Source: Cinnamomum chago (Eukaryota; Streptophyta; Magnoliopsida; Laurales; Lauraceae). Taken from it: a stretch of 64,000 nucleotides of DNA. The number at the start of each line of letters is the position of its first letter. The first letter of the stretch is position 1. The notes under the pieces were generated by a model that worked only from the letters and a program-made list of their open reading frames with translations, was not told the DNA's origin and did no database searches. The DNA lies in assembly GCA_038049695.1 (NCBI GenBank), contig CP142458.1, positions 40,207,501-40,271,500 of the forward strand, written 5' to 3'. Made by a program: the position numbers and the translations under genes. Positions 18,835 to 58,000 of the stretch are shown one piece after another.

Positions 18835-18971
18835 GGTCGACCGAGACCCAGGTCTCGGTCGACCGAGACCACTGCAGGGCAAGTGGACAGTTTTTTGAAC
18901 TGAAGCCCCAACGGTCAGAAATCTGACCGTTGTGCCTTCTTGGTCGACCGAGACCTGTTTGCCGGTCGACC
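18835..18971. repeat. GGTCGACC palindrome pairs upstream of TATA
   Basis: Perfect GGTCGACC at 18835, 18857, 18942 and 18964: two pairs, each with 22-bp spacing, often extended to CTCGGTCGACCGAG. They end about 30 bp before the TATA box. Confidence 0.9.
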
Positions 18972-18999
18972 GAGGACTAGCCGTTGGCAACTTTTTGGC

Positions 19000-19006
19000 T
19001 ATAAAG
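19000..19006 (+). promoter_or_regulatory. TATA box of solo SIRE-type LTR
   Basis: TATAAAG in ttggctataaagtccattc, on the LTR's sense strand. Confidence 0.6.
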
Positions 19007-19637
19007 TCCATTCATTTCCAACCTTTTTCAAGGCTTGAACCATGAACCTTTGAGAGCATTTTGGAGCCAAAGAAAGGGGAAGAAGTTGGAAAGGCTAGGG
19101 GGCCATTTGGAAATCAAATACATGAGTTCTTAAAAAGGTACACTTTACTTGTATTTTGATTTTCATTAAAATGAAATCCATGCATGCTTAAATCTTTGTT
19201 TTTCACTTATGCATGATTTCAAGAGTTGTTTTGCAAACTCATTATCTTCATTGGTATATTAGAATGGTTTGCAATCACTCTCACCTAAATCACATGTGTT
19301 CTTAGACTTTTATTTTCATACAACATGTTTTAGATCATTTCTTCAAGTTGTGTGAATCTTTCATGTGATTAGTATTTTTCTCTTCAATCATCTTTTTATA
19401 AGCTTTGATTTTAAAATGCATCATGCATTCATTTAAGAGCTTCATTGTTAAAATAGATTGAAGTAGAGCATTCATACACTTGTGCACACACTTTAACTTA
19501 ATTGAGTGTATGTTTGTTATTTGTATTAAACTTTCATATTAGCCTAGTCAAGAGGCAATTTCATATGAGCTTAAATTGTAATCTCTTAGAGTGATCTTTT
19601 GTAAAGACACTTTCTTAGAGAAAGCTTTATTTGTAAA

Positions 19638-19805
19638 GGTTATTGCTTAGCCTAAGAAAAGCATTGTATAAGGTTATTGCTTAGCCTAAGAAAAGCATAT
19701 TGTAAGGTTATTGCTTAGCCTAAGAAAAGCATCTTGTAAGGTTGTTGTTTAGCCTTTGAAAAGCAACATTGTAGAGGTTATTGCTTAGCCTTTGAAAAAG
19801 CATAA
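19638..19805 (+). repeat. 34-38 bp tandem repeats in SIRE-type LTR
   Basis: Five units of 'ggttattgcttagcctaagaaaagca' plus a short variable tail. The last two units have 'cctttgaaaagca'. The SIRE LTR at 28450-28530 has a shorter reverse-complement version. Confidence 0.88.
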
Positions 19806-20065
19806 ATAGTGGAAATCCGGTGGGGTGATTGGATCACAAGCCGGTAGTGGATGTAGGCACGTTGGCCGAACCACTATAAATATTGTGTTGTGGTGATTGC
19901 TATGTGGTGATTGATTTTGTTTAGCTTCCGCATATTGATTGATCATTCATCACATGTGACTAGTTTAGTTTAAGAATTAAAATTGGTTTAAATTGGTCAC
20001 AATTGTAGCACACCCTATTCACCCCCCCCCCCCCCTCTAGGGTTAGGATCCTCGTGGACTTTCAA

Positions 20066-21137: not shown

Positions 21138-22624
21138 TGTCGCGACCCCGGACCGGGTTATCGAGGTCCAAATTCGGGATCGGGACTAATTATGGTGTGT
21201 GAGTCACATTTATTTAATTTCCCACAGGTGTCTGTGGTGAGGATATCACAACAACATAGTACATTTTTATTAAGTGCGGAAGCGTGTAGCAAATCAAATT
21301 GATAATTTCAATTCTAGTCACAAGATAAAATCATATATATAAACCAAGTATCAGAATGAGCAATGATCATTAGTGCTTTCCCAAAAGAAAAGTTAAAATT
21401 TATACAAAAGATCATTTAGTTACATTCCCAAAAATAGAGGCCAACAAAGGCCAATGTTGACAAAATACCAATCCCCGAAGGAATGGTTAAACGTTCCCAA
21501 AATGTTACGTCTCTCAGAGCAATCAAATGTCTAAACGACATCATCAACATGCCACTCAACTAGGTATTGTAGTTCATTGACCGCGTCCTCAAGCTCCACC
21601 TTGGGGTAGACAATGTCCGGACCTGAGTACCAAAGAGTGGGTCAAACACGACGGTTTGGCGAATGGGTGAAGAGACATAACAATATAATAATAAATGAAT
21701 TTACCTTCAAAAGCATTTAAAACCTGTTTAAATAACAATTTCCATAAAAGAGATAAATCATTCATTCAAATACAAGTATGCATTGTAAAACACGTAAAGG
21801 TAACTAATGAAATGGGAAACGAGCAAGATGGCAACCACAAGAAGCTAAGTCCTCTATCACCAAAGTGACAGAGCAATATCAAGGCGTTGATCTCAATCAC
21901 ACGAGGTGAGGAGAAACAACGAAATATATACATATACATATAATATACGGGACATGACCACGGTAGCGAGCCGGGCATCGGGAACCACGGTAGCAATCCA
22001 GGGTATCGGGACAAGACCACGTTTTAACTGGGTAGCGGGATCCAAACTGCAGTTGGCGGGACAAGAGGGGGATCTTCAAGTCAATGGATCAGACTGACAA
22101 GGTTATCCAAGCTTAGTGGTGCCGACTCATAGGTCAAATAACATAAATCAAAACATGTGTAAAATACATCAAGTGCAAGTAAATAAACGGGGAGGACGGG
22201 GGTGCTCAAAGGCCCAACTGTCATTTCTTGTCTGGCAATGCACTTCAGGACTAACAATTATTACAAGTACAATTTCCAATGCTTTCGGGAATAACAAGTC
22301 ATGTAGTATAATTCTCTGGAATAGTAAAGTACAATAAACCATTGAAGTTTCGGGTTCAAGATTTGTTTGAAGTGAATAGGGATCCTGTATGTCTAAATCA
22401 GTAAGACTTGGTACTCTTTGAGTTTGGGGACATCCTGAGGTCCTTATACACTTTGAATTTTCAAAACTTCAAATGAAATCTTCGTGACGTGGTTTCTTTC
22501 TTAAATGGCCTCATACATTGCTTAGTAAATCTCCCTGACATAGAGGGTTTCTCAATGAATAGTCCCAAAATGTTTAAACAATTCATCATTATCCCAAACA
22601 TAGCCCTTGACCGACAGAGCACAT

Positions 22625-22906
22625 CGCTCGAGCGAACCGGAGAGTTCGCTCGAGCGAGGTGGTCTCTGGAATGGTCTTCTGGGAGGGTTCGCTTTAGCGA
22701 AATTGAGGTCGCTTGAGCGAACTCATCCAGCATCAAGTTGGCTCGAGCGAAAGTTCAGTTCACTTGAACTAACCACTCTTTGGAACGAGTTCTGTAAGGG
22801 TTCGCTCAAGCGACAAAGGGGTCCGCTCGAGCGAACTATCCATTGGAATGGCACGAACCCTTTTCTGGACACTTCGCTCGAGCGACCTATCAAGTTCGCT
22901 CGAGTG
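22625..22906. repeat. Five CGCTCGAGCG palindrome pairs
   Basis: Palindrome starts at 22625/22647, 22690/22710, 22740/22761, 22803/22824 and 22875/22897. Within-pair spacings are 22, 20, 21, 21 and 22 bp. Some copies are one- or two-base variants such as CGCTTTAGCG and CACTTGAACT. Confidence 0.9.
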
Positions 22907-23741
22907 AACTGTCAAGAAACTGATTCTGGGATAGTTCTTCTCCTCTCTTTCTTTTCCTTCTACAACCTCCTTTACACACCAAATGAGGAGTTCCAAAACT
23001 CCATCCAAATCAACATAAAATCTCCTACAACATCCATTTCTTCTTCCTCCAACAATATCACATCCACATACAAAGAAAAAAGGGAAGGAAACCACTACAC
23101 ACAAGAGCACATTTGAGATGAAACAAGAGAAAATTGAATGCCATGAACCAATACATTTCTATGACAATAAATGCACTATCAAGGTTCTTTATGAGCATTC
23201 ATTTCAAGTCAAAGCAATAAATAAGCATGTATGGGAAAACAATAAAATCAACCACATTTCTTATAAACCATTGAAAGCTCATAAAATCAAATCATCCACT
23301 TGCCTTGGGTCCAAGCTAATCAATAACAAGCTCTAACACTCCTCCAAGCCAAGAATCCAAGCTATGAACCAAAATCCCCAAAAACAAACCCTAAATGGGT
23401 CAAAACAAGAAATAGAAAGGGAAACCTTACAATAATGAAAATGGAACCTCTTCAAGGTCAAAGAAACACAAATCTAAGAGATGGGGAAGGTTGCTTACTT
23501 GTAGATTCTCTAAATGAACAAGGTGAGCTCAAAGAGAGTCTTGGAATGGGAGGTCTTCTCCAAAAATGGTATTAATGGAGAGCTATAGTGGTGAGAGAGA
23601 AGATGATGACAAGCATTCTTCCAATAGCAAAGGTTTGGTAGTGGATTTGGAGATGGAAGAACAAGGAGAAAAGAGAAAAGGGAAAACCCTAGTTGAAGAA
23701 TGGAGTTGAGCTAGAAAAGGAGAAAGGGAGAAGAGAGTTCC

Positions 23742-23751
23742 CTTTTTATAG
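23742..23751 (-). promoter_or_regulatory. TATA box of Tekay-type solo LTR
   Basis: CTATAAAAAG on the LTR's sense strand. The palindrome array is about 0.85-1.1 kb downstream of it. Confidence 0.6.
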
Positions 23752-24256
23752 AAGATGGAGTTGGGTCCCACCACTAGAATCCTTTGTGGGCTGAAATCAT
23801 GTTTATCTGGGCTTCAAACGAATTCGACGAAGAAGAGAAAAGTGATCGCTGAAATAACTAGTTTCCAAAAAGTATATGGTTCGCTGGTTTTAGGGATACC
23901 AAATTTTTTGGTACAGATTAAGTGTAAAAAGATTGTTTTGCCCTCAATGTTAGGAAAGTCGGGTTTCGGGATCTCGAACGGGCACGGGACCAACATAAAA
24001 GTTGCAAGGATTAACAAGATAAATAAAATGGGATTAAAATAATAAATACAAGAATCTCAGATAAATCTCCAAGTAATCGCAAAGTCATAAAAGGAACCCC
24101 CAAAAGGCCCCACTAGTCACAAAGGCACTTAAAACTCCCCAAAGCTATATCAAAAGCTATTCTAATCCCAACTTACCCAAAACACACTAAACACGCTTAG
24201 AACTAAAACACCACTTAATTAACACTAATCAATGTCACTCGGGACGGGGTCTTACA

Positions 24257-25717: not shown

Positions 25718-25722
25718 TGAGG

Positions 25723-29061: not shown

Positions 29062-29070
29062 ATTTTATAG
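29062..29070 (-). promoter_or_regulatory. TATA box of SIRE-type LTR
   Basis: CTATAAAAT on the minus strand, in the same place relative to the palindrome array as in the solo LTR at 18315. Confidence 0.6.
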
Positions 29071-29099
29071 AGAAAACGAGCTCTAATGGAACTATTGTC

Positions 29100-29222
29100 G
29101 GTCGACCGATAAACAGGGTTTGGTCGACCGACCACCAATGGTCATATTACAACGGCTATATTTTAGAAAATTTTGGACTGTTGAAAAAGGTGTCGGTTCA
29201 CCGAACTGGAGTTCGGTCGACC
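29100..29222. repeat. GGTCGACC palindrome array (SIRE 3' LTR)
   Basis: GGTCGACC at 29100, 29122 and 29215 and variant GGTTCACC at 29195, giving spacings 22 and 20 bp. More degenerate GACCGAC copies run to about 29300. Confidence 0.85.
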
Positions 29223-29573
29223 GACAGCTGACCGACACTCGACCGACAACCTGATCGACGATCCCTGATGCACTGATTTTACATTTCGGAATAGGAGCCG
29301 ACAGCTGACCAACCATTCCTGAATTTTTAAAGACTTAAAAATGATTTCAAAAAGGAATATTTTGGTCTTGGGGGTAAGGCTAGACTAAGAGCTAACACGT
29401 TTGATAAAAATAGATTTTAAAGAGCAAATCAAAACATGTTTGAGCAAGAATTAACATAAGACCTTTTTGAAGCTAAGATTAAAAACATTTGATGCATGAA
29501 GATTCCAATAAAGAAGTATGAGATGTCAAGCTTATGAAAATGCATGTATCCAATCTAATTGCAAACCCTAACA

Positions 29574-35279: not shown

Positions 35280-35299
35280 CGCCACACCATAATAATCAA

Positions 35300-35700: not shown

Positions 35701-35983
35701 AAAAAAACAATGGAATTTCCTGATCAATTTCTGACAGGCTACCTACAGTACTTCTGACTACATAGATACTAAATGCTATATTGCTAAATGACACTTGCTA
35801 TCAAAATTGAAAGAATCATGAAACCACATCCCCATGCGGGATCAACACGTGAAAATAAAAATATATATCAATGCTGAAAACTTATTGCAGTCTTAAAAGG
35901 CATATATCTCTAGAGATACAAAAGAATGGAGGATCAATTTCATAGAGCAGTAAAGCTAGAAAAATAGGGTAGCCCACTGACCG

Positions 35984-38763: not shown

Positions 38764-38870
38764 TGATCTGCTTTTCTAGATAGAGTTTTCACTTTCCCTA
38801 CAATCAAACAACCCTAAATGCTTAACTCCTTCCAAAAAAAAACTCCAAATTCGTACAAATCCATCACATT

Positions 38871-39954: not shown

Positions 39955-40874
39955 GAATATACATAAGTGCCTCTTGACATAGGCTGATATGAAAATGATA
40001 ATTTAACTAAGACATATGCATGATAAATGCAAAGATCAATAAATGATACATATGCCTTTAAATCTACTTCTATCTCTTTTGAAAATCAAGACTCATAAAT
40101 GATATGAGATAGAGTGACTACACATGTTTTTGAAAGAAAACAATAAATGTCTAACATGTGAGTTTTCTTAATCAAATGATGAAGTTAAAAATGATAAACA
40201 TATTTTAAAATGAAATCATGTTTCAACATTTGAACACTTTTAATCATGCCTTTTAAGAAATCAAAGATTTAAAGACAAGCATGAATAAAATAAGGATAAG
40301 AGAAGCAAACCCAATGAAGAATAAAAGTTTTGTCATGATGATTTGCCCTCCTAGCTTCCCTCTAGCCTAGCATGGTTGCCCACCTTCATTGGCCCTCAAA
40401 AGTCTCAAAAGTGTTGGCACAAATCCTAAGAAAGAATTCATTTTAAAGAGAAAATGAGCTCCAACGGAACTATTGTCGGTCGACCAACAAATAGGGTTCG
40501 GTCAACCGACCACCAACGGTCATATTACAACGGCTATATTTTTGAAAATTTCGGACCGTTGAAAAAGGTGTTGGTTCATCGAACTGGACTTCGGTCGACC
40601 GACACTCGACCGACAATCCCTGATGCACTGATTTTACATTCTGGAATAGGAGCCGACAGCTGACCGACTAGAGCTCGGCTGACCGACCATTCTTGAATTT
40701 TTAAAGACTTAAAAATGATTTCAAAAAGGAATATTTTGGTCTTGGGGATAAGGCTAGACTAAGAGCTAACATGTTTGATAAAAATAGATTTTAAAGAGCA
40801 AATCAAAACATGTTTGAGCAAGAATTAACATAAGACCTTTTTTATGCTAAGATTAAAAACATTTGATGCATGAA
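39955..40874 (-). repeat. SIRE-type 5' LTR, piece 2
   Basis: Continues the LTR match (28575 to about 29494) from the CACTA duplication to the Tekay insertion (ATGAA, 40870-40874). Includes the LTR's palindrome array. Confidence 0.93.
40478..40680. repeat. GGTCGACC palindrome array (SIRE 5' LTR)
   Basis: GGTCGACC/GGTCAACC at 40478 and 40500 (22 bp), GGTTCATC/GGTCGACC at 40573 and 40593 (20 bp), then degenerate copies. Here the first pair has mutated relative to the left LTR. Confidence 0.85.
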
Positions 40875-43800
40875 TGTCGCGACCCCGGATCGGGCCCCCA
40901 CGTGACTGATCCGGGGTCGGGACATTTAATGATTGATGATGATGTTACCACATCGGTTTAATGATTCCATACATTTATTTAATTTCCCACAGGTGTCCGC
41001 GGTGAGGATATCACAACCATAACTGAACATTTCTATTAAGTGCGGAAGCGTGTAGCAAATCAAATATAATTTACTTCTGACCACCAAATAGTCACATGTA
41101 TAATCAAGCATCAGAATGAGCAATGATCGTTAGCATGTTACCCAAAGTAAGTTAAAGTTTATACAAATATCACATAATTACATTTCCCAAAATTGAGGCC
41201 TACAAGGCCAATATAACCAAAATACCAATCCAAAGAATGGTTAAATAGTTTTTCAAAATATATAAGGTCTCTCATAGCAACCAAACGTCTACATGACGTC
41301 ATCAGCACGCCATTCAACTAACTGTTGCGGTTCTACGACCGCCTCCTCGTGCTCCTCCTCGGGATAACCAACAACGAGACCTGAGTACTAAAGAGTAGAT
41401 CAAACACGACGGTTTGGCAAATGGTAAAACACAATGACAATATGAAAATACATGAATTTACCTCCAAAAACATTTGAACCTGTTTAAAGGACAATTTCTC
41501 TAAACAAGATAAAACATTTATTCAAAATACGAGTATGCATCATAAAACATATAAAGGTAACCAAGGGAACGGGTAACAATCAAGATGGCAACCACACGAA
41601 GCTAAGTCCTCTATCACTAAAGTGATAGAGCAATAACTAGGCACTGATCTCAGTCACTCGAGGTGAGGAGAAACAGTGGATCTTATAAATACATATACAT
41701 ATACTATACATGACCACTGTAGCGAGGCGGGCATCGGGGATCACAGTAGCAATCTGCGGCATCGGGACAAGACCACGGTAATAACCGGGTAGCGGGATCC
41801 AAACTGCAGCTGGCGGGACAAGAGGGGGATCTCTAAGTCGGTGGATCAGACCAACGGGGTTATCCAAGCTTAGTGGTGCCGACTCATACGTCAAATACAA
41901 TCGAGACATATGCAATTAATCAAGTACAATAATACACGGGCAAGACGGGGGTGCTCAAGGGCACACTATCATTTCATGTGGTGCAATGCACTTCAAGACA
42001 AGTAGCTATATCAAGTGTAATTCAATGCTTTCGGGAAAACAAGGCACGTCGTATAAACCTCGGGATCGATAAAGTACAGTAAACAATTGACATTTCGGGT
42101 AAAATATATATTTGAAGTGAATAGGGACTCCATATGTCAGTCAACTAACAATCTAGTACTCTTTGAGTTTGGGGACATTCCGGACTCCTTAAACACTCCG
42201 AATTTTCAAAACCTCAAATGACATCTTCGTGATATGGTTTCTTTCACGAATGGCCTCATGCATTGCTCAGCAAATCTCCTTGACATAGAGGGGTTCCCAA
42301 AGAATAGTCCCAATACGTTGAAATAGTTAAACAGGGTCCCCAAACATAGCCTTGACCCACAAGGCTCATCGCTCGAGCGGACTGGAGGGTTCGCTCGAGC
42401 GAGTAGCTCTCTAGAATGGCTGTCTGGGTGGGTTCGCTCGAGCGAAGTTGAGGTCGCTCGAACGAAGTCATTGAGTCGGGCGAAGTTTTTAGTGCGTTCA
42501 AACGAACAACTCTCTGGAACAGGTTCTGGGATGTCCGCTCGAGCGACCAAGCTACTGGAATGCTCCGAACCCTTCTCTGGACAGGTCGCTCGAGCGAAGT
42601 GTCATGTTCGCTCGAGCGAACTGTCCAGAAACTAATTCCGGACCAGTTCAGCTCCTCTTTATCTCTTCCTTCTACAATCCCTTTTTAGCCACTTTTATAC
42701 ATCAGATGAGGAGTCTAAAACTACATTCAAATAACATCAAATCTTTCACCACATCCATCCCATTCTCCTCCATCCATATCACATTCAATACAAGGAAAGA
42801 AAGAAGGAAACTATTTCACGTAAGATATATATTTGAGACAAAACAAGAGGAATTAAATGCTATGAACCAACACATCTCTTGGACCATAAATGTACCATTA
42901 ATACTCTATCATGAGCATTCATTTCAAAACAAAGCAATAAATATGCATTAATGGAAAATATCCAACGTCAATGAAAGCTTAGGAAAAATCATTCATCCAC
43001 TTGCCTTGGTCTCTAGTAAGCAAATCAAGCTCTAACAAGTCCTTTAAATCAAATGTCCAAGCTACAAGGAAAATCCCAAAATAAAACCCTAAAGAGTCAA
43101 AACATAGAATAGGAAGAAAGAAGCTTCAATAACAAAGATGGAGATTCCCTTAAGCTAGGAGAACACAATTCTAGAAGAAGAGAAGGATTACTTACTTGTA
43201 TGGTCCTCTAATGGACAAGGTGAGCTCAAAGAAAGTCTTGTAATGGAGGGTTTTCTCTAGCAATGGTACCAATAGAGAGCTATGGTGATGAGGAAGAAGG
43301 TGATGATCTCATCCTCTCAATTTGTGCAAGGTTGGTGGTGAGTTTGGTGATGGAAAGCAAGAGCAAGAAGAAGGCAATGGAAAACCCTAAGTTTTCACTC
43401 TTGTGCTGGAAAAAGGAAATGGAAGGGAAAGGGTTTCCTTATAAACAAGTGGGGAGTGGGCTCCACTACTAACAATCTAATTGGGCTGAAAACATGGCTT
43501 TCGGGGCTTCTAATGAATTCGAAGAAGAAGAGAAAAGTGATCGTCGAAATATCTAGTTTCCAAAAAGTATATGTTTCGCGGGTTTCGGGAATATCAAGTT
43601 TTTGGTACAGATTTTTGTGCACAATGACTGTTTTGCCCTCAAGGCTATGAAATCGAGTTTCGAGATCTCGAACGGGGATGGGAACAACATAAAAGTTGTA
43701 GTGATTAACAATACCAATAAAACGAGATTAAAACAATGAATGCAAAATCTCCGATAAATCCTCAAGCGCATGCAAGGTCATAAAAAGGAACCCCCAAAGG

Positions 43801-43947
43801 GTCCCACTATCACAAAGCAATCAAAATTCCCCAAAACTATTTCAAAAGCTAATCCAAACCCAACTTAGCCAAAATCACTAATCAAGCTTAGAACTAACAC
43901 ATGACTTAATTTACACTAATCGAGTTCTCTCGGGTCAGGGTCTTACA
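40875..43947 (-). repeat. Tekay-type 3' LTR (left)
   Basis: Plus-sense TGTCGCGACC...GGTCTTACA. Closely similar to the right LTR, with scattered mainly C/T and G/A changes. Confidence 0.95.
42370..42618. repeat. CGCTCGAGCG palindrome array (Tekay 3' LTR)
   Basis: Same paired arrangement as at 22625-22906, with copies such as CGCTCGAACG and GCGTTCAAACG. Position in the LTR is the same. Confidence 0.88.
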
Positions 43948-43964
43948 TCCTCCACCCCTTAGGG
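43948..43964 (-). promoter_or_regulatory. Tekay polypurine tract
   Basis: Minus CCTAAGGGGTGGAGGA directly before the 3' LTR, the plus-strand primer site. Confidence 0.85.
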
Positions 43965-44759: not shown

Positions 44760-45413
44760 CTACGGGTGATAGGCTGTGCTAAACTGTAGTTTCGTACCCA
44801 TAGACTCATGTAGCGTCTTCCAAAACCTCGAGACGAATCTTCTGTCTCTGTCAGATGTGATAGAAACTGGCTGCCCATGTCGACTGACGATCTCGCTGAC
44901 AAACAACTCTGCTAAAGGTAGCATGTGCATCTTCTTCCCTGTCTTCATAGCAATGAAATGCGCTGACTTGGTGAGTCGGTCCACAATGACCCATATCGCA
45001 TCGTTGCCTCTGCTAGTCCTTGGTAGTCCCGAAATAAAGTCCATAGTAATGTTCTCCCATTTCCATTCCGGGATCTCTAACGGCTGTAACAATCCTGGAG
45101 GCCTCTGATGTTCTGCCTTTATCAACTGACACGTCATACAACGGGAGACAAACGCTGCAATTTCTCTCTTCATGTTGTTCCACCAAAATCTGCCCTTTAA
45201 ATTCTGATACATCTTCGTGCTGCCTGGATGCATAGAGTACTTCGTACTGTGAGCTTCGGTCATGATATCATTCCTCAAATCTTCAATATTTGGCACGCAT
45301 AGACGGTCACGGTAGTACAAAACTCCATCAACAATACGGAAGTTAGGACGTTCTGCTATATGCTCTGAAATCTTGGCCAACTCTGGATCTTGCAACTGAC
45401 TGTCCTTGATCTT
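44760..45413 (-). pseudogene. Tekay integrase N-terminal and core
   Basis: Zinc-binding H-H-C-C part: EAHSTKYSMHPGSTKMYQNL, then FVSRCMTCQLIKAEHQRPPG. Core: ITMDFISGLPRTSRGNDAIW (first Asp) and VSRHGQPVSITSDRDRRFVS (second Asp). Ends at a TAG in AYHP-stop, where CAG is expected; the third catalytic residue lies just beyond. A TAG also lies at its start (45414-45416), from a GAG or similar codon. Confidence 0.93.
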
Positions 45414-46071
45414 CTAAATGAAAGAAGGTTCTGACACTGTCATGTTAGCTAACAAAACACCCTTCCTTAGTGGCTGTAGATCTAAACTCAACTCTTCAAA
45501 TTGCTCAAAGATACAAGTGCCACTTAGGTTTGCCAAGCCTACTGATTTTCTGCTCAAGGCATCAGCAACTACATTAGCTTTCCCCGGGTGGTACTTGATT
45601 GGAAAATCATAGTCCTTGATATATTCCATCAATCTTCCCTGCCTCATGTTCAATTCCTTCTGAGAAAACAAGTATTGTAAGCTGCGGTGATCGGAGTGAA
45701 CTTCGAACTTCTCTCCATAAAGGTAATGTCTCCACATTTTCAACGTGAAAACAACCGCTGCTAACTCAAGATCATGGGTGGCATAGTTCTTCTCGTGATC
45801 TTTCAACTGTCTGGATCCATATGCAATCACTTTTCCTTTTTGCATCAACACACAACCAAGTCCAACATTCGAAGCATCGGTAAAAATGGTAAAATTGTCG
45901 CTCCCGGATGGTAAAGTAAGGACTGGTGCTGTAGTCAATCTCTTCTTTAGCTCTTGGAAACTATCTTCACACTGATTTGTCCACACATATGGCACATTCT
46001 TCCTTGTCAACTTCGTCAAAGGTGACGCAACCGAAGAAAATCCCTACACTAACCTCCTGTAATAGCTTGCC
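45414..46071 (-). pseudogene. Tekay RNase H
   Basis: [20 protein letters not shown], then [20 protein letters not shown] (first catalytic Asp), [20 protein letters not shown] (catalytic Glu), [20 protein letters not shown] and [14 protein letters not shown], all key acidic residues visible. Upstream of 46019 a TAG in RRLV[13 protein letters not shown] interrupts the connection to RT, and the solo LTR at 46072 splits it further. Confidence 0.93.
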
Positions 46072-49000
46072 TGTAAGACCCCGACCCGAAAGAACCCGAT
46101 TAGTATTAATTAAGTTCATGTTAGTTCTAAGCTTGATTAGTGTTTTTGGCTAAGTTGAGTTTGGAATAGCTTTTGTACTAGTTTTGAGGAATTTTGATTG
46201 CTTTGTGTTAGTGGGGCCCTTTGGGGGTTCCTTTTCATGACATTGCATATGTTTGAGGATTTATCGGAGATTTTTGCATTCATTGTTTTAATCTCGTTTT
46301 ATTCGTATTGATAAGCTCTACAGCTTTCATGTTGATCCCGTCCCCGTTTGAGATCCCGAAACCCGATTTCATAGCCTTGAGGACAAAACAGTCATTGCAC
46401 ACAAAATCTGTACCCAAAACTTGATATTCCCGAAACCCGTGAAACATATACTTTTTGGAAACTAGATATTTCGGCGATCATTTCTTTCTTCTTCGTCGAA
46501 TTCATTAGAAGCCCCGAAAGACAAGATTTCAGCCCTTGAATGTCTTTAGTAGTGGGACCCATTCCCATTTGCCATATAAGGAGAACCCATCTTCCCATTC
46601 CCTTTTTCCAGCACAAAAAGAACCTAGGGTTTGCTTTTGGAAACTTTTCTTCTTCCTCTTGCTCTCTCCACCTTCAATCCACACCAAGCTTGCATCAATC
46701 AAGAAATGGAAGTTATCATTCTCCTCCCCACCTTGCAAGCTTCCTTTTTATACCATTTCTAGAAGAATCCACCAACTTTGAGATCTTCATTGAACTAAAT
46801 CTTGCCATTAGAGGACCTTACAAGTAAGTAATCCTTCCCTTCTTCTAGATTGGTATTATTCTAGCCTTAGAGAAACTTCATTTCCATTATTGTAAGGTTT
46901 CCCTTCCTATTTCTTGTTTTGACCCATTTTAGGGTTTGTTTTGGGGGATTTTTGTTATAGCTTTGATCTTTGGCTTGGAAGAGTATAGGAGTTTGATTTC
47001 TTGATTTGAAGACACAAGGCAAGTGGATGATTTGATTTTTATGAGCTTTCAATGGTTTCCATGAAGAATGTGGTTCACTTGTCATTTCACTCATATTTAT
47101 TGGCTTGCATTTATTTTTGAAATGAATACTTGAATGCATATTGGCTAAGTCATTTAATGTTTTGTAAACATGTTGGTTTAGCATTTATTGTCTTTTGGTT
47201 ATATTCTAAATGAATGTTTGTGAAATGGTTTCCTTCCTCCTTCCTTTGTATTGGACTTGATGTGGAAGAATGAGGTGATGAATGATCATATATTGGAGTT
47301 TTGGGAGAGGCATAGATAGGTGCATTGGAGGAGCTCCTAGCTCAGTTATATTGCAGGGACTAAGTGGAAGTGGGGAGAATGGTTTTGAGGAGGAGAAAGG
47401 GCTCAAATCTGAACACAGTGGGTGTTTCCCGCACCTAGCGGTCACCTGGCGGCTAGCCGTCTGGTGACTGGCGGCTAGCCGAAATGTCACGGTTGCTTTT
47501 CCAGAGAGCACACTTCTCCACCTGAAAACTCAGTCAGCTCCACGGTTAGCCAGCGGCTAACCGCCGAACCCATCGGCGGCTAACCGCCAGCTAACCACAC
47601 CTTGGCGGTTAGCTTTCCAGTAAGCTGCATTTTTGGCAGCCAAGCCGCGGCCAGCTGCGCGGTCAACCAGCGGCTAGCCGCCCATCCCAGCGGCGGCTAA
47701 CGGCCAGCTGACCGAAATTTCCCAGGTTTCGGAGAGCTCCTGCTGGAGCGAACTCTCCGGTTCGTTCGAGCGCTGAGCTTTGTCAATCGAAGGAGATTCA
47801 CTAGGCATTGCATGAGGCCATCCGAGAAAGAAACCATATCACAAGGATGTCATTTGAAGTTTTGAAAATTCAAAGTGTATAAGGAGCCCGGAATGTCCCC
47901 AAACTCAAGAGTACCAAATTATTATTAGATTGACATACGGGATCCCTATTCATTTCAAATAAATCTTGAACCGATGCTTTACCCGAAATTTCGATTGTTT
48001 ATGGTACTTTATCGATCCCGAGATTTATACTACATGCCTTGTTTTCCCGAAAGTATTGAATTACACTTGAAATAGTTACTTGTCTTGAAGTGCATTGCAC
48101 CACATGATATGACAGTGTGCCCATGAGCACCCCCGTCTTGCCCGTTTGTTTATGTATTTGTACTAGATTTACTTGCATATGTCTCGATTGTATTTGACCT
48201 ATGAGTCGGCACCACTAAGCTTGGATAACCATGTTGGTCTGATCCACCGACTTGGAGATCCCCCTCTTGTCTCGCCAGCTGCAGTTTGGATCCCGCTACC
48301 CGGTCATTACCGTGGTCTTGTCCCGATGCCGCAGATTGCTACTGTGGTCCCCGATGCTCGGCTCGCTACCGTGGTCATGTATAGTATATGTATATGTATA
48401 TGTATATGTAATTATATGAGATCCACTGTTTCTCCTCACCTCGAGTGACTGAGATCAGTGCCTAGTTATTGCTCTATCACCTTAGTGATAGAGGACTTAG
48501 CTTCGTGTGGTTGCCATCTTGATTGTTTCCCGTTTCCTTGGTCACCTTACATGTTTTACATTGCATACGTGTATTTGGAATATATGTTTTATCTTGTTTA
48601 GAGAAATTGTTATTTAAACAGGTTTACATATTTTGAAGGTAAATTCATTTATTTTCATATTGTTATTGTGTTTTCCTCCATTTGTCAAACCGTCGTGTTT
48701 GATCTACTCTTTGGTACTCAGGTCCCGTTGTCGGTTATCCCGAGGAGGAGCTCGAGGAGGCGGTCGTAGAACCGCAGCAGTTAGTTGAGTGGCGTGCTGA
48801 TGACGTCATGTAGATGTTCGGTTGCTATGAGAGACTTATCTTTTTGGGGAAATTGTCTAACCATTCTTTGGATTGGTATTTTGTTATATTGGCCTTGTGG
48901 GCCTCTATTTTTGGGAAATGTAATTAAATGATATTTGTATAAACTTTAACTTACTTTGGGTCAATATGCTATAGATCATTGCTCATTCTGATATAGTGTC

Positions 49001-49231
49001 TTTATACTTGTGATATTGTTTTATGATCAAGGATGGTTGACTATTTGATTTGCTACACGCTTCCGCACTTAAAAGAAATGTTCATTGATGGTTGTGATAT
49101 CCTCACCGCGGACACCTATAGGAAATTAAATAAACGTATGTTGTCATTTAAACAGATGTTGTGGTTATCTATTCACCATCATTTCAGATGTAATTGTCCC
49201 GATCCCGGATTCCCGGTCTGGGGTCGCGACA
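46072..49231 (+). mobile_element. Solo Tekay-type LTR, reverse orientation in Tekay element
   Basis: TGTAAGACCCC...GGGGTCGCGACA, 3160 bp, flanked by TTGCC (46067-46071) and CTGCC (49232-49236), one mismatch. Lies between RT and RNase H of the host element. TATA box at about 46569 (CCATATAAGG). It differs from the other family copies in carrying a GGCTAGCC-type array at 47451-47713. Confidence 0.92.
47451..47713. repeat. GGCTAGCC/GGCTAACC palindrome array with 11 and 22-23 bp phasing
   Basis: Cores at 47451, 47473, 47544, 47555, 47578, 47589, 47607, 47661, 47672, 47695 and 47706. Successive spacings within groups: 22; 11, 23, 11, 18; 11, 23, 11. A leftover CTGGAGCG/CGTTCGAGCG pair follows at about 47743-47774. 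Confidence 0.88.
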
Positions 49232-49682
49232 CTGCCAAACCCAGAAAACTTCTGATTTCTGTTGCATTCTTCGGTCTTTCCAAACTCATAACTGCTTCAA
49301 TCTTGGACGGATCCACTGACAATCCTTCTTTCGAGAAGATGTGCCCCAAAAATGCTACTTGCTCCAACCAAAATTCACACTTGTTGAGCTTCGCATACCA
49401 CTGATTCTCTCTCAAAAGTTGCAGTGCTATCCTCAAGTGCTCTTCATGCTCTTCTCTGGTCTTAAAGTATACCAAAATGTCATCCATGAACACTACAACG
49501 AACTTATCCAAATACTCTGCAAATATCTTGTTCATCAACGCCATGAACACTGCCGGCGCATTAGTCAACCCAAATGGCATCACTAGGAACTCATAGTGGT
49601 CATATCTTGTCCGGAAAACTGTTTTCAACACATCTGATTCTCTAACTCTCAACTGATGGTAACCGGATCTCAAATCGATCTT
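49232..49682 (-). pseudogene. Tekay reverse transcriptase, C-terminal half
   Basis: After a TAG at 49683-49685, reads [60 protein letters not shown] (catalytic MDD) and [20 protein letters not shown]. Breaks at [11 protein letters not shown], where the solo LTR is inserted. Confidence 0.93.
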
Positions 49683-50430
49683 CTAAAAGTATGATGCACC
49701 TTGTAACTGATCAAACAATTCATCTATTCTTGGTAATTGATACTTGTTCTTAATGGTCACTTGATTCAATCTTCTGTAATCTATACACATTCTCATCGAA
49801 CCATCCTTCTTCTTGACAAACAAAACTGGAGCTCCCCAAGGTGAAATACTCGGTCTCACAAAACCTTTATCTAACAAGTCTTGCAACTGAGTCTTCAACT
49901 CTCCCAACTCTGCTGGAGCCATTCTATATGGTGCAATAGATATCGGAGCGGTCCCTGGTAACAACTTAATAGTGAAATCAATCTCTCTGATGGGTGGTAA
50001 ACTTGGAATCTCCTCCGGAAAAACATCCGGGAATTCCCAAACAATTGGGATCTCCTCCACCCCTTGGGACCGTTTATCCTCCGTGATAAACGCCAAATAT
50101 GCTTCACAACCACTTTTTAAAAGTCTATCAGCCTTCAATGCTGAGACCAACCCTGCACGAGGACTCCTCCTCTCTCCCTGAAACAACACCCCTGCTGGTA
50201 TCTCATCTAACTTGAAAGTCAGGGTCTTATGGAAACAATCCATTGTGGCATGGTATCCTGCCAGCCAATCCATCCCTAGGATGACATCAAAATCGAACAT
50301 CTCTAACAGAATGAGATCTGCGGTTAAAACTACTTCTCCTATCTGGACTGTGCAACTAGGGTAATATGTACTACAAATAATTTGTTTGCCTACTGGGGTT
50401 GCCACAGTCAAAATAAACTCAAGTTCCCTA
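49683..50430 (-). pseudogene. Tekay protease body and RT N-terminal half
   Basis: Protease strands: [20 protein letters not shown], then [72 protein letters not shown]. Ends YF-stop (TAG). The upstream protease active site lies in another frame because of a one-base shift near 50430. Confidence 0.92.
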
Positions 50431-51062
50431 GCATATCAATCAACTTAGAAAATTCATGGGATAAGAATGAGTGTGTAGAGCCAGGGTCAAATAAAATCTT
50501 AGCTTTTATCCCACAAACAAGAAGTGTACCTTCCACTACATCTCCCGCTGCCTCTGCATCAGCTCTATTGACCCCGTAGATTTGCCCTCGATGTTAGGGC
50601 CTATTCTGTGCCTGCTGTGGTCTGCCATGTTGCGCATTCCTATGCTACTGCGGTGCATGCTGATTTGGGTTGTGTCCCTGCTAATGAGCCTGTTGTTGTT
50701 GTTGTTGTGGTCTATGTTGCTGTTATTGTGGTGCTTGTTGCTGTAGTGGCCTTGCCTGATTCTAGACAATGATTACATTCTGTGGTGCTGCTGGACGTTG
50801 TGCCCCTTGCTGCTGCTGCTGGTTCGCCTATTCTGCCTTGGACAGTCTCTCATCTGATGGGTCATGGAACCACATCTGAAACATGCTCCTGTCAGTGTAC
50901 GACACTATGCACTCTCATGGTTCTTCCCACAGTGGGTACAAACCAAGGGACCCTGAGCATTCTGTTCTGTCCTCTACCTCTTGTTCTGATGATTCCTTTG
51001 CTGGTAGTTCTGCTGCTGAGCTTGTCCCTTGCCTTGGACTCTAAGGATCTTGTTGTGAAAGT
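50431..51062 (-). pseudogene. Tekay gag C-terminus, zinc knuckles, protease active site
   Basis: Protease active site ILFDPGSTHSFLSHEFSKLI near 50430-50500. Upstream, Gln/Asn-rich sequence, and two zinc knuckles: CTHCGKNHESA-stop-C and CFRCGSMTHQMRDCP (intact). Paired knuckles before protease are usual in this lineage. The Gln-rich stretch holds several stops (TAG from CAG). Confidence 0.85.
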
Positions 51063-54054
51063 TGTAAGACCCCGACCCGAGTGAACCCGATTAGTGCTAA
51101 TTAAGTTGCGTGTTAGTGCTAAGCTTGATTAGTGTTTTTGGTTAAGTTGGGTTTGGAATAGCTTTTGATATAGTTTTGGAGATTTTGATTTGCTTTGTGT
51201 TAGTGGGGCCCTTTGGGGGTTCCTTTCATGACATTGCATATGTTTGAGGATTTATCGGAGGTTTTTACATTCATGATTTTAATCCTGTTTTACTCGTTTT
51301 GATGATCCCTACAACTTTCGTGTTGATCCCGTCCCCGTTTGAGATCCCGAAACCCGATTTCATAGCCTTGAGGGTAAAACAGTCATTTCACACCAAATCT
51401 GTACCCAAAACTTGATATTCCCGAAACCCGCGAAACATATACTTTTTGGAAACTAGATATTTCGACGAACATTTCTTCCTTCTTCGTCGAATTCATCCGA
51501 GGACCCGAGAGAGATGATTTCAGCCAAATTAGTTCCTTAAGTTGTGGGACCCAACCTCTCATTGTTAACAAAAGAGACATTTCCCCTTCTTTTTCCATTT
51601 TTATTTTCCAGCACAAGAGAGAGACCTAGGGTTTTTTTAGCAACTTTCCTTTCTTCTTCTTGCTTCTCCTTCTCCAATCCTCACCAATCTTGCACCAAAC
51701 TTGAAATGGAGATCACCAACCTCTTCCTCATCTAGCAAGCTTCACTTTGATACCTTTTGTAGAAGAATCCATCAACTTTGAGACTCCCTTTGAGATAGCT
51801 CTCTTCATTTGAAGGTCATCCAAGTAAGTGTTCTTCTTCATCTTCTAGATTTGTGTTCCTATAGCCTTAGAGAAGCTCCACCTTTATTATTGAAAGGTTT
51901 CCTTGTCATTTCATTGTTTGACCCATTTTAGGGTTTGTTTTGGGGGTTTTTTATTGTAGCTTGGAAGTGAGCTTAAGAAGTGAGTAGAGGCTTGATTTTG
52001 GCTAGCTTGGACTTGAGGCAAGTGAATGATGAAGTGTTTTTAAGTTTCAAATGGTTTGGTGAAGCATTTATGGATTTTCATGTTTTCATTGATTCCTTTT
52101 ATGGTTGAAATAAATGATCTTTATGCATCTTGATAGCCTCATTTAATGTCTTGGAAACATGTGTTTAAGTCATCTTGTTTATAGCTATATGTGGTTGTTG
52201 ATGTGTTGGAAGGAAAGGAAACAAAAAGGAAAAAGATCAAGTTCCCGGACCTACTACACGCCCAGGTCCGATCGATCGGACGTGTAGGCCGATCGATCGG
52301 ACTATCTTTAACTGTAAGGCTTTTTTAGCCGATCGATCGGACTGTAAGGCCGATCGATCGGACCTGTCCGTATCTGGGACAGAAATTCGGTTTGAGTCCA
52401 GTGGGTTTTGATATTATTTTTTTTTGTGGACCTTGGCTACCCTCCTTGGACTCACTTGACCATATGTGAGGGTGTCTTGAGCCGATGCTCTTCACGGTTG
52501 GTTCGGATGCATCGAAGTTCAATCTATTTCAATCTAGAACGGGATGGAACGACACGATATTTTATTCATATCTAAACGAAAGGTCTATTTCCTTGGGTAT
52601 CGCGAATTCTATTCCTTTCGGTGACTGAGTAGGTTGCTCGATGGTTCCGGGTTAACATCATACTTAGGATGGACCGTTTATAGTCTTGATCTTCTATGCT
52701 AATACCTAGTTCTAACCATAAGCTCATATTAAGTTTTTAAAATCGTAAAAGTGCATAAGGAGCCCGGAATGTCTTCAAACTCAAGGAGTACCAAATCATT
52801 TCAATAATCGACATACGGGACCCTTATTCACTTAAATAGATCTTGAAATCAATATTTTCCCGGAATTATAATAGTTCATTTTATTTCTTCATTTCCAAGA
52901 TTTACTTTACATGATCTGTTTTCCCGAAAGCTTGATGGTTACACTAGTAACATTGACCTGTCCCGAAGAGTATTGCCCGATATGAAATGAAAGTTATACA
53001 TTTGAATATTCTTGCCCGTTCATTGATTTACTTGTACTTGATTGACTTGCATATGTATCGATGTGTTATTTAACCTATGAGTCGGCATCACTAAGCTTGG
53101 ATACCTTGTCGGTTTGATCCACCGACTTGGAAATCCCTCTCCCGTCCCGCCAGCTGCAGTTTGGATCCCGATACCCAATCATTACCATGGTCCCGTCCTG
53201 ATGCCCGGTTCGCTACCGTGGTCCCGTCCTGTATATTTATATTGTTTATATGATTTACGTTGATTCTCCTCACCTTGTGTGACTGAGATCAACGCCCCGT
53301 GATACTGTTGTCACTCTAGTGACAGAGGACTTAGCTTTATGTGATTGCCATCTCGTGAGTTCCCGATCCCTTGGTTACCTCATATGTTTTATCTTGTTTA
53401 CATGTTTTCTAGCAAATGATTTATCTATTTTGTGAGAGTTCTTGCTTAAACAGATTTCCTTGCTTTTCGAGATATTTCATCTATTACGTGTTGTTGTATC
53501 TTTTCACTCTCTTACCAGACCGTCGTGTCTGACCCATTTACTTTGGTACTCAGGTCCCATTGCCGGTTTCCTTGAGGAGGAGCCAGAGGAGGCGGTAGGT
53601 GAGCCGCAACCTCTAGTTGAGTGGCGTGCTGACGATGTCATGTAGACATCGGGTTGCTACAAGAGGCGTAACATTTTGGGGAGAACTATTTAACCATTCT
53701 TTTGGGTTATTGTTTTGTTTATATTGGCCTTTGTTGGCCTCTAATTTTGGGGAATGTAACTAAATGATATTTTATCTAACTTTAACAACTTTTGGGAAAC
53801 ATGCTATAGATCATTGCTCATTCTGATACAGTTTTGATATTTGATGTTAATGCTTGCATGATTAGAGATAGTCTAACTACTTGATTTGCTACACGCTTCC
53901 GCACTAAAAAGAAATATTCATGCAAGGTTGTGATATCCTCACCGCGGACACATGTGGGAAATTAAATAAGTTGTATATTGTTGATGTAGATAATCATCAT
54001 TAATCATTGTTCACTAATGTCCCGATCCCGGATTTCCGGTCCGGGGTCGCGACA
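51063..54054 (+). mobile_element. Second solo Tekay-type LTR, reverse orientation
   Basis: TGTAAGACCCC...GGGGTCGCGACA, 2992 bp, perfect AAAGT duplication (51058-51062 and 54055-54059). Inserted in gag of the Tekay element. Carries a CCGATCGATCGG array in place of the CGCTCGAGCG array. Confidence 0.94.
52268..52361. repeat. CCGATCGATCGG palindrome pairs
   Basis: Four perfect 12-bp palindromes at 52268, 52289, 52329 and 52350: two pairs, each at 21 bp. Confidence 0.92.
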
Positions 54055-54840
54055 AAAGTTCTCAAACTTACAGGCCCTCTTGACAGCTTCATCGAAAGTT
54101 GCAGGTGGTACTACTCCGGTGGCATCTCTCTCAATAAAAGGGTTAAGTCCTTCAAAGAACTTGGCAATTTTCTTCTCCACCGTATCCACCAACTCCGGAG
54201 CATACCTGGACAATCTCTAGAACTTGGTGAGGAATTCGAGGACTGTCATACTTCCTTGTACAAGCTGCTGAAATTCTATGGCCTTTTGCTTCTTGATGTG
54301 AGCGGGCACGTACTTATCATGGAATTGTCTCTTGAAGTTTGCCCAAACCTCTGCATCAGCCATGGTCCTGTATTCCTCCCTCACCGTCTTCCACCATCTG
54401 TCTGCTGTACCGCTAAATAGAGATGATGCTAGCTTCACTCTTTCACCTCCGGTACAATGGAAAATCTCAAAGATGTTCTCCGTATGTTCCAACCAGTCAT
54501 CTGCAGCCAATGGATCTTCTATCCCCATAAACTCTTTCGGAGCTCTCTGCCGAAACCGCTCAAACAAAGCGTTCGGGTCATGTTGCCTTTGATTGATAAC
54601 AATTGCGGGCTGAGGTTGAACCGGCTCGGGTCTTCTTTGTATTACTTCTAATAACTGCCTCTGCATGTCTGCCAGCTCTCTAGCATGATCTTCCTCTCTT
54701 TTGAGCATTTGTTCTTGCAGCCTAGCCTGATTCTCATTAGCTTGACGTTGTTGGTCAAGCATTGCCTGCATCATCTGCTGAAATTAATTTGGTGGGTTGT
54801 TATCAACCCTATCCTCTTCAAGTGGAACTGTGTGATCACT
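54055..54840 (-). pseudogene. Tekay gag
   Basis: Gln-rich N-terminus MMQAMLDQQRQANENQARLQ with coiled-coil character, then the gag domain: ALFERFRQRAPKEFMGIEDP, LAADDWLEHTENIFEIFHCT, RVKLASSLFSGTADRWWKTV and FKRQFHDKYVPAHIKKQKAI. A stop near 54214 precedes LSRYAPELVDTV-like MSRYAPELVDTVEKKIAKFF and TFDEAVKRACKFENF at the solo LTR border. An upstream start near 54888 (MPHRKRPVN) followed by a TAA (54781-54787 region) suggests the original N-terminus was about 35 residues longer. Confidence 0.92.
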
Positions 54841-55032
54841 TTCGCTAGCAGAAGGGTTGCCATTTACTGGTCTCTTACGATGTGGCATGATGCTGCAAAA
54901 CAAATTGTCAGCACATAATAATCAAATAAAGGGTCACACATTGCTCACACGATACTAGCTAACGAAAGGTCTAACGGATCCTCGTCACGTCCTTAGGATT
55001 TCTAGTTTCTTTTAATTGCTTGAAACACGTCT
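54841..55032 (-). other. Tekay leader and gag N-terminal remnant
   Basis: Short region between primer site and readable gag. Confidence 0.6.
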
Positions 55033-55046
55033 CGCTCTGATACAAG
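55033..55046 (-). promoter_or_regulatory. Tekay primer-binding site, altered
   Basis: Minus TTGTATCAGAGCG, one base off the initiator tRNA-Met type TGGTATCAGAGC, next to the 5' LTR. Confidence 0.75.
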
Positions 55047-55048
55047 TC

Positions 55049-58000
55049 TGTCGCGACCCCGGACCGGGCCCCCACGTGACTGATCCGGGATCGGGACATT
55101 TAATAATTGATGATGATGTTACCACATCGATTTAATGATTCCATACATTTATTCAATTTCCCACAGGTGTCCGCGGTGAGGATATCACAACCATAAATGA
55201 ACATTTCTATAAAGTGTGGAAGCGTGTAGCAAATCAAATATAATTTACTTCTAACCACCAGAAAGTCACATGTATAATCAAGCATCAGAATGAGCAATGA
55301 TCGTTAGCATGTTACCCAAAGTAAGTTAAAGTTTATACAAATATCACATAATTACATTTCCCAAAATAGAGGCCTACAAGGCCAATATAACCAAAATACC
55401 AATCCAAAGAATGGTTAAATAGTTTTCCAAAATATATAAGGTCTCTCATAGCAACCAAACGTCTACATGACGTCAACAGCACGCCACTCAACTAACTGTT
55501 GCTGTTCTACGACCGCCTCCTCGTGCTCCTCCTCGGGATAACCAACAACGGGACCTGAGTACTAAAGAGTAGATCAAACACGACGGTTTGGTAAATGGTA
55601 AAACACAATGACAATATGAAAATACATGAATTTACCTCCAAAAACATTTGAACCTGTTTAAAAGACAATTTCTCTAAACAAGATAAAACATTTATTCAAA
55701 ATACGAGTATGCATCATAAAACATATAAAGGTAACCAAGGGAACGGGTAACAATCAAGATGGCAACCACACGAAGCTAAGTCCTCTATCACTAAAGTGAT
55801 AGAGCAATAACTAGGCACTGATCTCAGTCACTCGAGGTGAGGAGAAACAGTGGATCTCATAAATACATATACATATACTATACATGACCACTGTAGCGAG
55901 GCGGGCATCGAGGACCACAGTAGCAATCTGCGGCATCGGGACAAGACCACGGTAATAACCGGGTAGCGGGATCCAAACTACAGCTGGCAGGACAAGAGGG
56001 GGATCTCCAAGTCGGTGGATCAGACCAATGGGGTTATCCAAGCTTAGTGGTGCTGACTCATAAGTCAAATACAATCGAGACATATGCAATTAATCAAGTA
56101 CAATAATACACGGGCAAGACGGGGGTGCTCAAGGGCACACTATCATTTCATGTGGTGCAATGCACTTCAAGACAAGTAGCTATATCAAGTGTAATTCAAT
56201 GCTTTCGGGAAAACAAGGCACGTCGTATAAACCTCGGGATCGATAAAGTACAGTAAACAATTGACATTTCGGGTAAAATATCTATTTGAAGTGACTAGGG
56301 ACTCCGTATGTCAGTCAACTAACAATCTAGTACTCTTTGAGTTTGGGGACATTCCGGACTCCTTAAACACTCCGAATTTTTAAAACCTCAAATGACATCT
56401 TCGTGATATGGTTTCTTTCACGAATGGCCTCATGCATTGCTCAGCAAATCTCCTTGACATAGAGGGGTTCCCAAAGAATAGTCCCAATATGTTGAAATAG
56501 TTAAACAGGGTCCCCAAACATAGCCTTGACCCACAAGGCTCATCGCTCGAGCGGACTGGAGGGTTCGCTCGAGCGAGTAGCTCTCTTGAATGGCTGTCTG
56601 GGTGGGTTCGCTCGAGCGAAGTTGAGGTCGCTCGAACGAAGTCATTGAGTCGGGCGAAGTTTTTAGTGCGTTCGAACGAACAACTCTCTAGAACAGGTTC
56701 TGGGATGTCCGCTCGAGCGTACCCAAGCTACTGGAATGCTCCGAACCCTTCTCTGGACAGGTCGCTCGAGCGAAGTGTCATGTTCGCTCGAGCGAACTGT
56801 CCAGAAACTGATTCCGGATCAGTTCAGCTCCTCTCTATCTCTTCCTTCTACAATCCCTTTTTAGCCACTTTTATACATCAGATGAGGAGTCTAAAACTCC
56901 ATTCAAATAACATCAAATCTTTCACCACATCCATCCCATTCTCCTCCATCCATATCACATTCAATACAAGGAAAGAAAGAAGGAAACCATTTCACATAAG
57001 ATATATATTTGAGACAAAACAAGAGGAATTAAATGCTATGAACCAACACATCTCTTGGACCATAAATGTACCATTAATACTCTATCATGAGCATTCATTT
57101 CAAAACAAAGCAATAAATATGCATTAATGGAAAATATCCAAAGTCAATGAAAGCTTAGGAAAAAACATTCATCCACTTGCCTTGGTCTCTAGTAAGCAAA
57201 TCAAGCTCTAACAAGTCCTTTAAATCAAATGTCCAAGCTACAAGGAAAATCCCAAAATAAAACCCTAAAGAGTCAAAACATAGAATAGGAAGAAAGAAGC
57301 TTCAATAACAAAGATGGAGATTCCCTTAAGCTAGGAGAACACAATTCTAGAAGAAGAGAAGGATTACTTACTTGTATGGTCCTCTAATGGACAAGGTGAG
57401 CTCAAAGGAAGTCTTGTAATGGAGGGTTTTCTCTAGCAATGGTACCAATAGAGAGCTATGGTAATGAGGAAGAAGGTGATGATCTCCTCCTCTCAATTTG
57501 TGCAAGGTTGGTGGTGAGTTTGGTGATGGAAAGCAAGAGCAAGAAGAAGACAATGGAAAACCCTAAGTTTTCACTCTTGTGCTGGAAAAAGGAAATGGAA
57601 GGGAAAGGGTTTCCTTATAAACAAGTGGGGAGTGGGCTCCACTACTAACAATCTAATTGGGCTGAAAACATGGCTTTCGGGGCTTCTAATGAATTCGACG
57701 AAGAAGAGAAAAGTGATCGTCGAAGTATCTAGTTTTCAAAAAGTATATGTTTCGCGGGTTTCGGGAATATCAAGTTTTGGGTACAGATTTTTGTGCACAA
57801 TGACTGTTTTGCCCTCAAGGCTATGAAATCGAGTTTCGGGATCTCGAACGGGGACGGGAACAACATAAAAGTTGTAGGGATTAACAATACCAATAAAACA
57901 AGATTAAAACAATGAATGAAAAATCTCCGATAAATCCTCAAGCGCATGCAAGGTCATAAAAAGGAACCCCAAAAGGGTCCGTCCCACTATCATAAAGCAA

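Follow-up and report, generated by a model that had tools for sequence, protein, structure and literature searches.

Here we analyse arrays of short palindromes in long terminal repeat (LTR) retrotransposons, in a 64,000-nucleotide stretch of the Cinnamomum chago genome (contig CP142458.1, positions 40,207,501 to 40,271,500; hereafter the window, whose first letter is position 1). The window is a nest of such retrotransposons in a genome of 1.06 Gb, of whose 14 contigs 12 are large. An initial annotation of this DNA had reported palindromes phased at 20-23 bp in the regulatory regions of three retrotransposon families. We confirm this observation: the palindromes and their spacings lie where they were claimed, with small differences only. 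Arrays occupy eight places in the window, and two more are second-LTR copies. Since T1 and A are homologous, fully independent arrays number fewer than eight. The arrays are as follows, with gaps given from centre to centre.

219..357, minus strand: S1 array, five GGTCGACC-type palindromes (centres 224-351), gaps 21, 65, 20 and 21 bp, with CAACGG...CCGTTG between pairs.
7203..7259, plus strand: S2 array, three GGTCGACC palindromes (centres 7208-7253) in a Copia leader, about 270 bp past the primer-binding site of the element, gaps 21 and 24 bp.
18833..18973, plus strand: S3 array, two pairs of CGGTCGACCG-type palindromes (centres 18838-18967), 22 bp within each pair and 85 bp between them, with CAACGG/CCGTTG between pairs.
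22624..22907, minus strand: T1 array, nine sites of TCGCTCGAGCGA type (centres 22629-22901), gaps 22, 43, 20, 30, 63, 21, 51 and 22 bp.
29098..29224, minus strand: S4 array of the 3' LTR (centres 29103-29218), gaps 22, 73 and 20 bp.
40476..40602, minus strand: S4 array of the 5' LTR, not independent of the 3' LTR, one gap of 22 bp (40481-40503), then a site at 40596.
42369..42619, minus strand: A array, seven sites of TCGCTCGAGCGA type.
47449..47704, plus strand: B array, GCGGCTAGCCGC/GCGGCTAACCGC type (centres 47454-47698), gaps 22, 82, 23, 71, 23 and 23 bp.
47740..47773, plus strand: B relic, two decayed TCGCTCGAGCGA-type palindromes (3 and 2 mismatches) at a distance of 22 bp, next to the new array.
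52268..52361, plus strand: C array, CCGATCGATCGG type (centres 52273-52355), gaps 21, 40 and 21 bp, with TAACTG between pairs.
56543..56795, minus strand: D array, the same as A and not an independent case.

In most cases the palindromes of these arrays come in pairs, which longer gaps set apart. The nearly constant spacing first described thus holds within pairs but not for the array as an evenly spaced series, and we rejected an even tandem repeat because the unit is mostly a pair and the spacers differ. All 22 gaps of up to 25 bp in the eight arrays measure 20-24 bp, and the outer centres of the arrays span 45-272 bp. At 43 sites chosen by motif, dyad self-symmetry is 0.81-0.98 at offsets 1-6 (0.81 at 6) and 0.37 at offset 7, so that it falls off after ±6 bp. 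Direct identity between partners is only 0.30-0.45 at offsets 7-11, and the phasing is therefore not the recent copy of a 22-bp unit. Some details of the initial annotation need correction. For T1 (22625-22897) its list holds one 21 more than ours; at 40478-40593 the 22-bp pair is present, but the 20-bp partner did not appear in a scan allowing two mismatches. This region and 29100-29215, counted as separate cases, are the two LTRs of one element and represent one event. Absent from its list were the arrays at 42374-42613 and 56548-56789, which again belong to the two LTRs of a single element. The 11-bp half-steps that it described at 47451-47706 are visible by eye, but the window has no excess of perfect palindromes at 10-12 bp from one another (1, with 0.4 expected).

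Chance was rejected as the origin of the pairs by shuffles, by a motif-free scan of the window and by a genome sample. Of GC-rich palindrome pairs with a spacing of 19-24 bp the window holds 14, whereas 100 dinucleotide shuffles gave 0.64 ± 0.77 (at most 3). When similar near-palindromes 12-39 bp apart were sought without any motif, all 19 pairs found in the window fell at 20-24 bp, with none at 12-19 or 25-39. A motif-free scan of 18 genome stretches of 10 kb, taken at fixed positions and totalling 172.5 kb when N is left out, found 14 pairs at 19-24 bp, against 0 in five Markov-chain copies. One of the 14, in locus L027 (AGGAATTCCG), is probably due to chance. The scan also revealed the further words CCGGTTAACCGG, TCGGTTAACCGA and TATCGGCCGATA.

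Genome-wide counts extend these results. All are lower bounds, the controls are reversed motifs that are themselves palindromes of the same base composition, and the first 50 places listed for each word all lie on contig C1. The genome holds at least 36,642 GGTCGACC pairs at spacings of 8-38 bp, against 52 for the control; 34,575 of them (94%) are at 16-24 bp, and of the first 50 listed, which have 44 distinct spacers, 46 fall at 19-25 bp. At spacings of 12-42 bp there are at least 4,606 TCGCTCGAGCGA pairs and at least 7,942 CCGATCGATCGG pairs, and at 10-40 bp at least 1,108 CGGTTAACCG pairs, with no control pair in any of the three cases. The first 50 listed for TCGCTCGAGCGA fall at 20-22 (42), 32-33 (6) and 42 bp (2), those for CCGATCGATCGG at 20-22 (30), 40-42 (19) and 37 bp (1), and those for CGGTTAACCG mostly at 20-22 (30) and 31-32 bp (10), with one each at 18 and 25 bp and a further class treated below. 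The arrays are thus not confined to the few copies first seen, so that the refuting condition set by the initial annotation, confinement to those copies, does not hold.

The spacings concentrate at whole helical turns: two, three and four turns for TCGCTCGAGCGA and two and four for CCGATCGATCGG among the first 50 listed, which supports well the earlier suggestion of paired sites two turns apart. The strongest single result is the nearly empty range of 23-29 bp for TCGCTCGAGCGA, which holds 13 of the 4,606 pairs; the whole range of 23-31 bp holds only 32, of which 18 are at 30 bp and one at 31. Some listed TCGCTCGAGCGA strings have, by eye, like spacers at 22 and 33 bp, a step of one turn. Gaps between pairs in the window also favour multiples of about 10.4 bp (13 gaps, P = 0.002 against uniform gaps). 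For 11 unique window gaps the whole-turn test gives P = 0.002-0.007, and for 20 pooled gaps P = 0.001-0.002.

The arrays, first ascribed to three unrelated families, are better divided into those of Sirevirus-type LTRs (S1, S3, S4), that of S2, a Copia element whose pol falls in another clade and whose array is in the leader only, and those of Tekay-like Ty3 LTRs. The word GGTCGACC is carried by S1, S3 and S4, all in Sirevirus-type LTRs. The minus-strand element S4 has repeated AGGGGGAG polypurine tracts, with minus-strand copies at 29583, 29734, 29793 and 29847, and the last reads AGGGGGAG AT TGTTAGGG, in keeping with the multiple tracts of Sireviruses, the last followed by AT/TG. Of the Sirevirus junction CA/ATTGG/TATCAGAGC, S4 has ATTGGTATCAGAGC, yet with TA rather than CA before it; its C-rich signal near the LTR end occurs at 34845 and 28143. 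The start of the S1 LTR resembles that of S4 by eye. S2 has its primer-binding site at 6937 and the full 16-bp Sirevirus junction, and its pol fragment falls in a clade apart from S4 with 100/100 support in a tree of 28 rows (26 matches and two window rows). The LTRs T1, A/D, B and C are homologous and about 3 kb each. The element bounded by A and D (40875-58127) has the Ty3 order of gag, protease, reverse transcriptase, RNase H and integrase, with a chromodomain match (E 2.2e-4, 21.5 bits) under Pfam's 25.1; "Tekay", for this element and its relatives, is a provisional label taken from the initial annotation.

18315..20060, plus strand: S3, Sirevirus-type LTR starting TGTTAGGG, C-rich signal near 20024, right end approximate.
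21138..24256, minus strand: T1, single Tekay-type LTR with CATAG on both sides (ends and flanks by eye).
40875..43947, minus strand: A, 3' LTR of the Tekay-like element (40877-43947 in our scripts).
46072..49231, plus strand: B, single Tekay-type LTR nested in the A/D element.
51063..54054, plus strand: C, single Tekay-type LTR nested in the A/D element, with ACTTT on both sides (flanks by eye).
55049..58127, minus strand: D, 5' LTR of A's element, primer-binding site at 55042 (55051-58127 in our scripts).

Related Tekay-type LTRs have replaced the letters of their arrays. Over both the left and the right part of the LTR, A is more similar to B than to T1 (0.905 versus 0.841 and 0.895 versus 0.812; bootstrap intervals exclude zero), and in the divergent middle (columns 440-1200) the B-A and T1-A identities are equal, at 0.684 each. 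Across the array region T1 resembles A (0.784) and B does not (0.589). B carries GCGGCTAGCCGC yet retains the decayed TCGCTCGAGCGA-type pair at 47745/47767. The LTR L031 has flanks that fit C best in its right part, with 84.9% identity compared with 77.8% to A along the full LTR, and despite them its word and most of its gaps are those of A. A more distant Tekay-type LTR, L026 (57-63% identity), has a further word at a similar distance from the LTR start. Together, the relic, these identities, L031 and L026 show that letters turn over while pair, spacing and slot are kept. The middle part of the LTR varies as well (0.62-0.69), so the array is not the only variable region. The proposal of a repeat type moving between elements is not established by these results: within Tekay-type LTRs one palindrome has taken the slot of another, but no source of the incoming array was identified.

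TATAAA starts 32-35 bp from the end palindrome in six of eight distinct GGTCGACC arrays (S1, S3, the S4 3' LTR, L012, L020 and L031), and is lacking at this offset in S2 and in L010, which is not placed in a known LTR. The window copies are these, with offsets from the last palindrome centre.

187..192, minus strand: TATAAA of S1, offset 33.
19000..19005, plus strand: TATAAA of S3, offset 33.
29064..29069, minus strand: TATAAA of the S4 3' LTR, offset 35.

Hexamers of the CAACGG/CCGTTG or TAACTG type occur in the window once per 703 bp; we call them MYB-like, after the MSA/MYB3R and MYB-core consensus forms. One lies between the groups in all seven two-group GGTCGACC arrays (S1, S3, S4, L010, L012, L020, L031), and C, L022 and 14 of the 16 C-type spacer strings tested, two of these strings being reverse complements, likewise carry one between pairs; one more C-type string, outside the 16, holds TAACTG by eye. 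The CAACGG...CCGTTG sites of Sirevirus-type LTRs (18895-18990, 252-290, 29140-29185, 40505-40540) resemble the mitosis-specific MSA element of MYB3R factors. Of the window's 17 matches to MSA with one mismatch, seven fall between Sirevirus-type palindromes, or between palindromes and TATA, two of these seven being in the second S4 LTR.

The arrays are also rich in CpG, with observed-to-expected ratios of 0.75-1.75 against 0.52 in the rest of the window, and by eye five of six words have the form CG-N6-CG, TATCGGCCGATA being the exception. These features, and the span of the outer centres, would suit phased dyads that set nucleosome rotation or symmetric CG methylation and are read by chromatin factors rather than by sequence-specific activators. 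We consider this explanation very improbable. The reversed-pattern controls, of the same composition, yield 0-52 pairs, so letters matter, and the MYB-like site and near-fixed TATA distance of some families point to transcription.

Our results suggest that the arrays are probably enhancer modules in retrotransposon promoters, with predicted binding by dimeric host factors on one DNA face. The unit consists of two 12-bp dyads about two helical turns apart; at this distance two protein dimers could share one face and touch. Some families have a MYB-like site with one such unit on either side, and Sirevirus-type LTRs have TATAAA about 33 bp after the last dyad. From the letters and their arrangement we infer protein binding, the dimer state and activation by candidate factors. 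The interpretation offered by the initial annotation is thus partly supported, and its putative binding by dimeric host proteins is plausible. Under the enhancer reading, the letters would turn over as the partner factor changes or as the elements evade silencing. A broader proposal, which we advance tentatively and with some doubt, is that Copia and Ty3 LTRs share a spacing grammar of helix-quantised dimer-pair enhancers, in which the 12-bp word is swapped wholesale while pairing, register and slot are kept, because the elements track a diversified family of dimeric host factors or escape sequence-specific silencing.

Several observations weigh against enhancer modules. In T1, A, B, C, S2 and the S4 5' LTR, the 90 bp downstream of the end palindrome contain no TATAAA, and T1, A, B, L026 and L027 have no MYB-like hexamer between their pairs. 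Among the first 50 CGGTTAACCG pairs listed, eight form a class at 14 bp, not a whole number of turns, with a nearly unchanged spacer, and the genome sample also gave two pairs at 12 bp and one at 18 bp, of other words. The whole-turn preference of the longer gaps is weak out of sample (P = 0.04-0.11 for nine new gaps, which exclude the A-homologous array of L031 and include the 85 of L012, though its relative S3 shares it), and without T1 194 of 3000 random sets did equally well. Copies of one LTR family are non-independent in the genome counts. Finally, the outer flanks of Tekay pairs are complementary, as in a hairpin (5.23 of 10 versus 3.05 expected; for A, B and C alone 4.78 versus 2.83, P = 0.004).

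This last point fits an account by RNA: a palindrome pair is an inverted repeat, and the transcribed LTR may fold into stems that serve the element RNA or feed small RNAs for silencing. All ten folded array pieces (86-150 nt) are stabler than the shuffle mean (z -2.3 to -11.6), with none of 200 shuffles as good for nine pieces and two of 200 for S2, as is bound to hold for paired palindromes. In maize, the palindromes of Sireviruses are small-RNA hotspots, according to the available text of PMC5311732 and PMC10760457. Yet the outer flanks of S1-S4 are not complementary (2.67 versus 3.14), a hairpin loop has no reason to shun 23-29 bp, and a hairpin needs no palindrome at each site, whereas each site here is palindromic alone. 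For the listed GGTCGACC pairs, inner-spacer complementarity at offsets 7-10 is not above chance (P = 0.14). Hairpins are thus an unlikely explanation of the arrays as a whole, although in the Tekay arrays DNA register and RNA hairpins may both matter.

Enhancer modules must also be weighed against descent with mutation bias, in which an ancestral pair was copied within LTRs and carried along by them, its symmetry kept by template switching or quasi-palindrome correction, and its spacing is functionless. The genome counts do stem from multicopy LTR families, and T1 and A have the gaps 43 and 51 in common by homology. Departures from the consensus words are one-sided in 18 of 22 cases and two-sided but unpaired in three; only one is a paired double change, so that compensation is not shown. 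Against descent, unlike palindromes in Copia and Ty3 LTRs have a spacing of 20-22 bp in common, spacers are diverse, and extra spacing classes occur at one and two added turns. We find this account hard to credit, and rather improbable overall.

The phenomenon is genome-wide and partly known, the Sirevirus part being already published. The available text of Bousios et al. 2010 (PMC2829016) describes "RM boxes", palindromic repeated motifs in Sirevirus LTRs that are CpG-rich and clustered upstream of TATA, nearly all with a CGG-CCG core, and CGGTCGACCG in a Vitis element; within its Copia data set the motif is called Sirevirus-specific among the elements compared. The word of S1-S4 is this same CGGTCGACCG. 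S1, S3 and S4 share with RM boxes the CGG-CCG core and the position upstream of a conserved TATA, at the offsets listed above, with no exact TATAAA in the S4 5' LTR. They have four or five copies per LTR, whereas at least eight per element are given in that text; a whole-window scan allowing two mismatches found no palindromes in the internal region of S4, and S1 and S3 have no internal region here. The T1, A and C arrays (CGCTCGAGCG and CCGATCGATCGG) differ in lacking the CGG-CCG core and in belonging to LTRs of the Ty3-type element and its relatives, not to a Copia element; B's CGGCTAGCCG has the core. In the maize Copia elements, the available text of PMC5311732 and PMC10760457, citing Bousios 2016, describes LTR regulatory palindrome clusters that are sequence-variable, like the window arrays, with strong predicted secondary structure. 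Tnt1-type elements, as mentioned in the available text of PMC2829016, have repeated or symmetric regulatory boxes in the variable part of the LTR.

The initial annotation knew of no described shared system, which does not hold for the Copia part and stands for the Ty3 part in the literature searched. That literature, with most subscription papers outside it, describes no palindrome pairs in Ty3 LTRs, no word replacement and no helical quantisation, and the available text of PMC2829016 shows no helical spacing of RM boxes. As far as searched, the layout in Ty3-type LTRs, the word replacement in one slot with a relic, the helical quantisation and the MYB-like site between pairs in some families are new. 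What was a Sirevirus feature thereby becomes a candidate for a general rule that would hold for the promoters of Copia and Ty3 retrotransposons alike, one that predicts activity at spacings of 21 and 31 bp and its loss at 26 bp. Word replacement in a fixed LTR slot would offer a route to the host factors that drive very many elements.

Some further observations concern the elements and their relatives. Among the best 120 matches of 906 and of 1083, the closest relatives of the Copia pol fragments at 32082-32978 and 9246-10343 reach 87% and 89% identity, and named plants about 50-55%. The viral contigs searched for relatives gave no match to TCGCTCGAGCGA pairs; nine of them (L001-L009) hold CGGTCGACCG pairs 19-22 bp apart in a search that allowed 18-24, which are possibly chance or repressor operators. 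The S4 5' LTR is interrupted by about 4.7 kb (35280-39953), with a 35-bp tandem repeat near 35582. Direct repeats at 14199-15501 and 59694-61141 (89-92% identity) are probably the LTR pair of one old element, much of the interval consisting of nested insertions; a Ty3 gag closely follows the first repeat, and pieces of reverse transcriptase, RNase H and integrase lie between the two on the strand of gag. At 1520-1917, a 151-bp stretch is present twice, 247 bp apart, with 97% identity.

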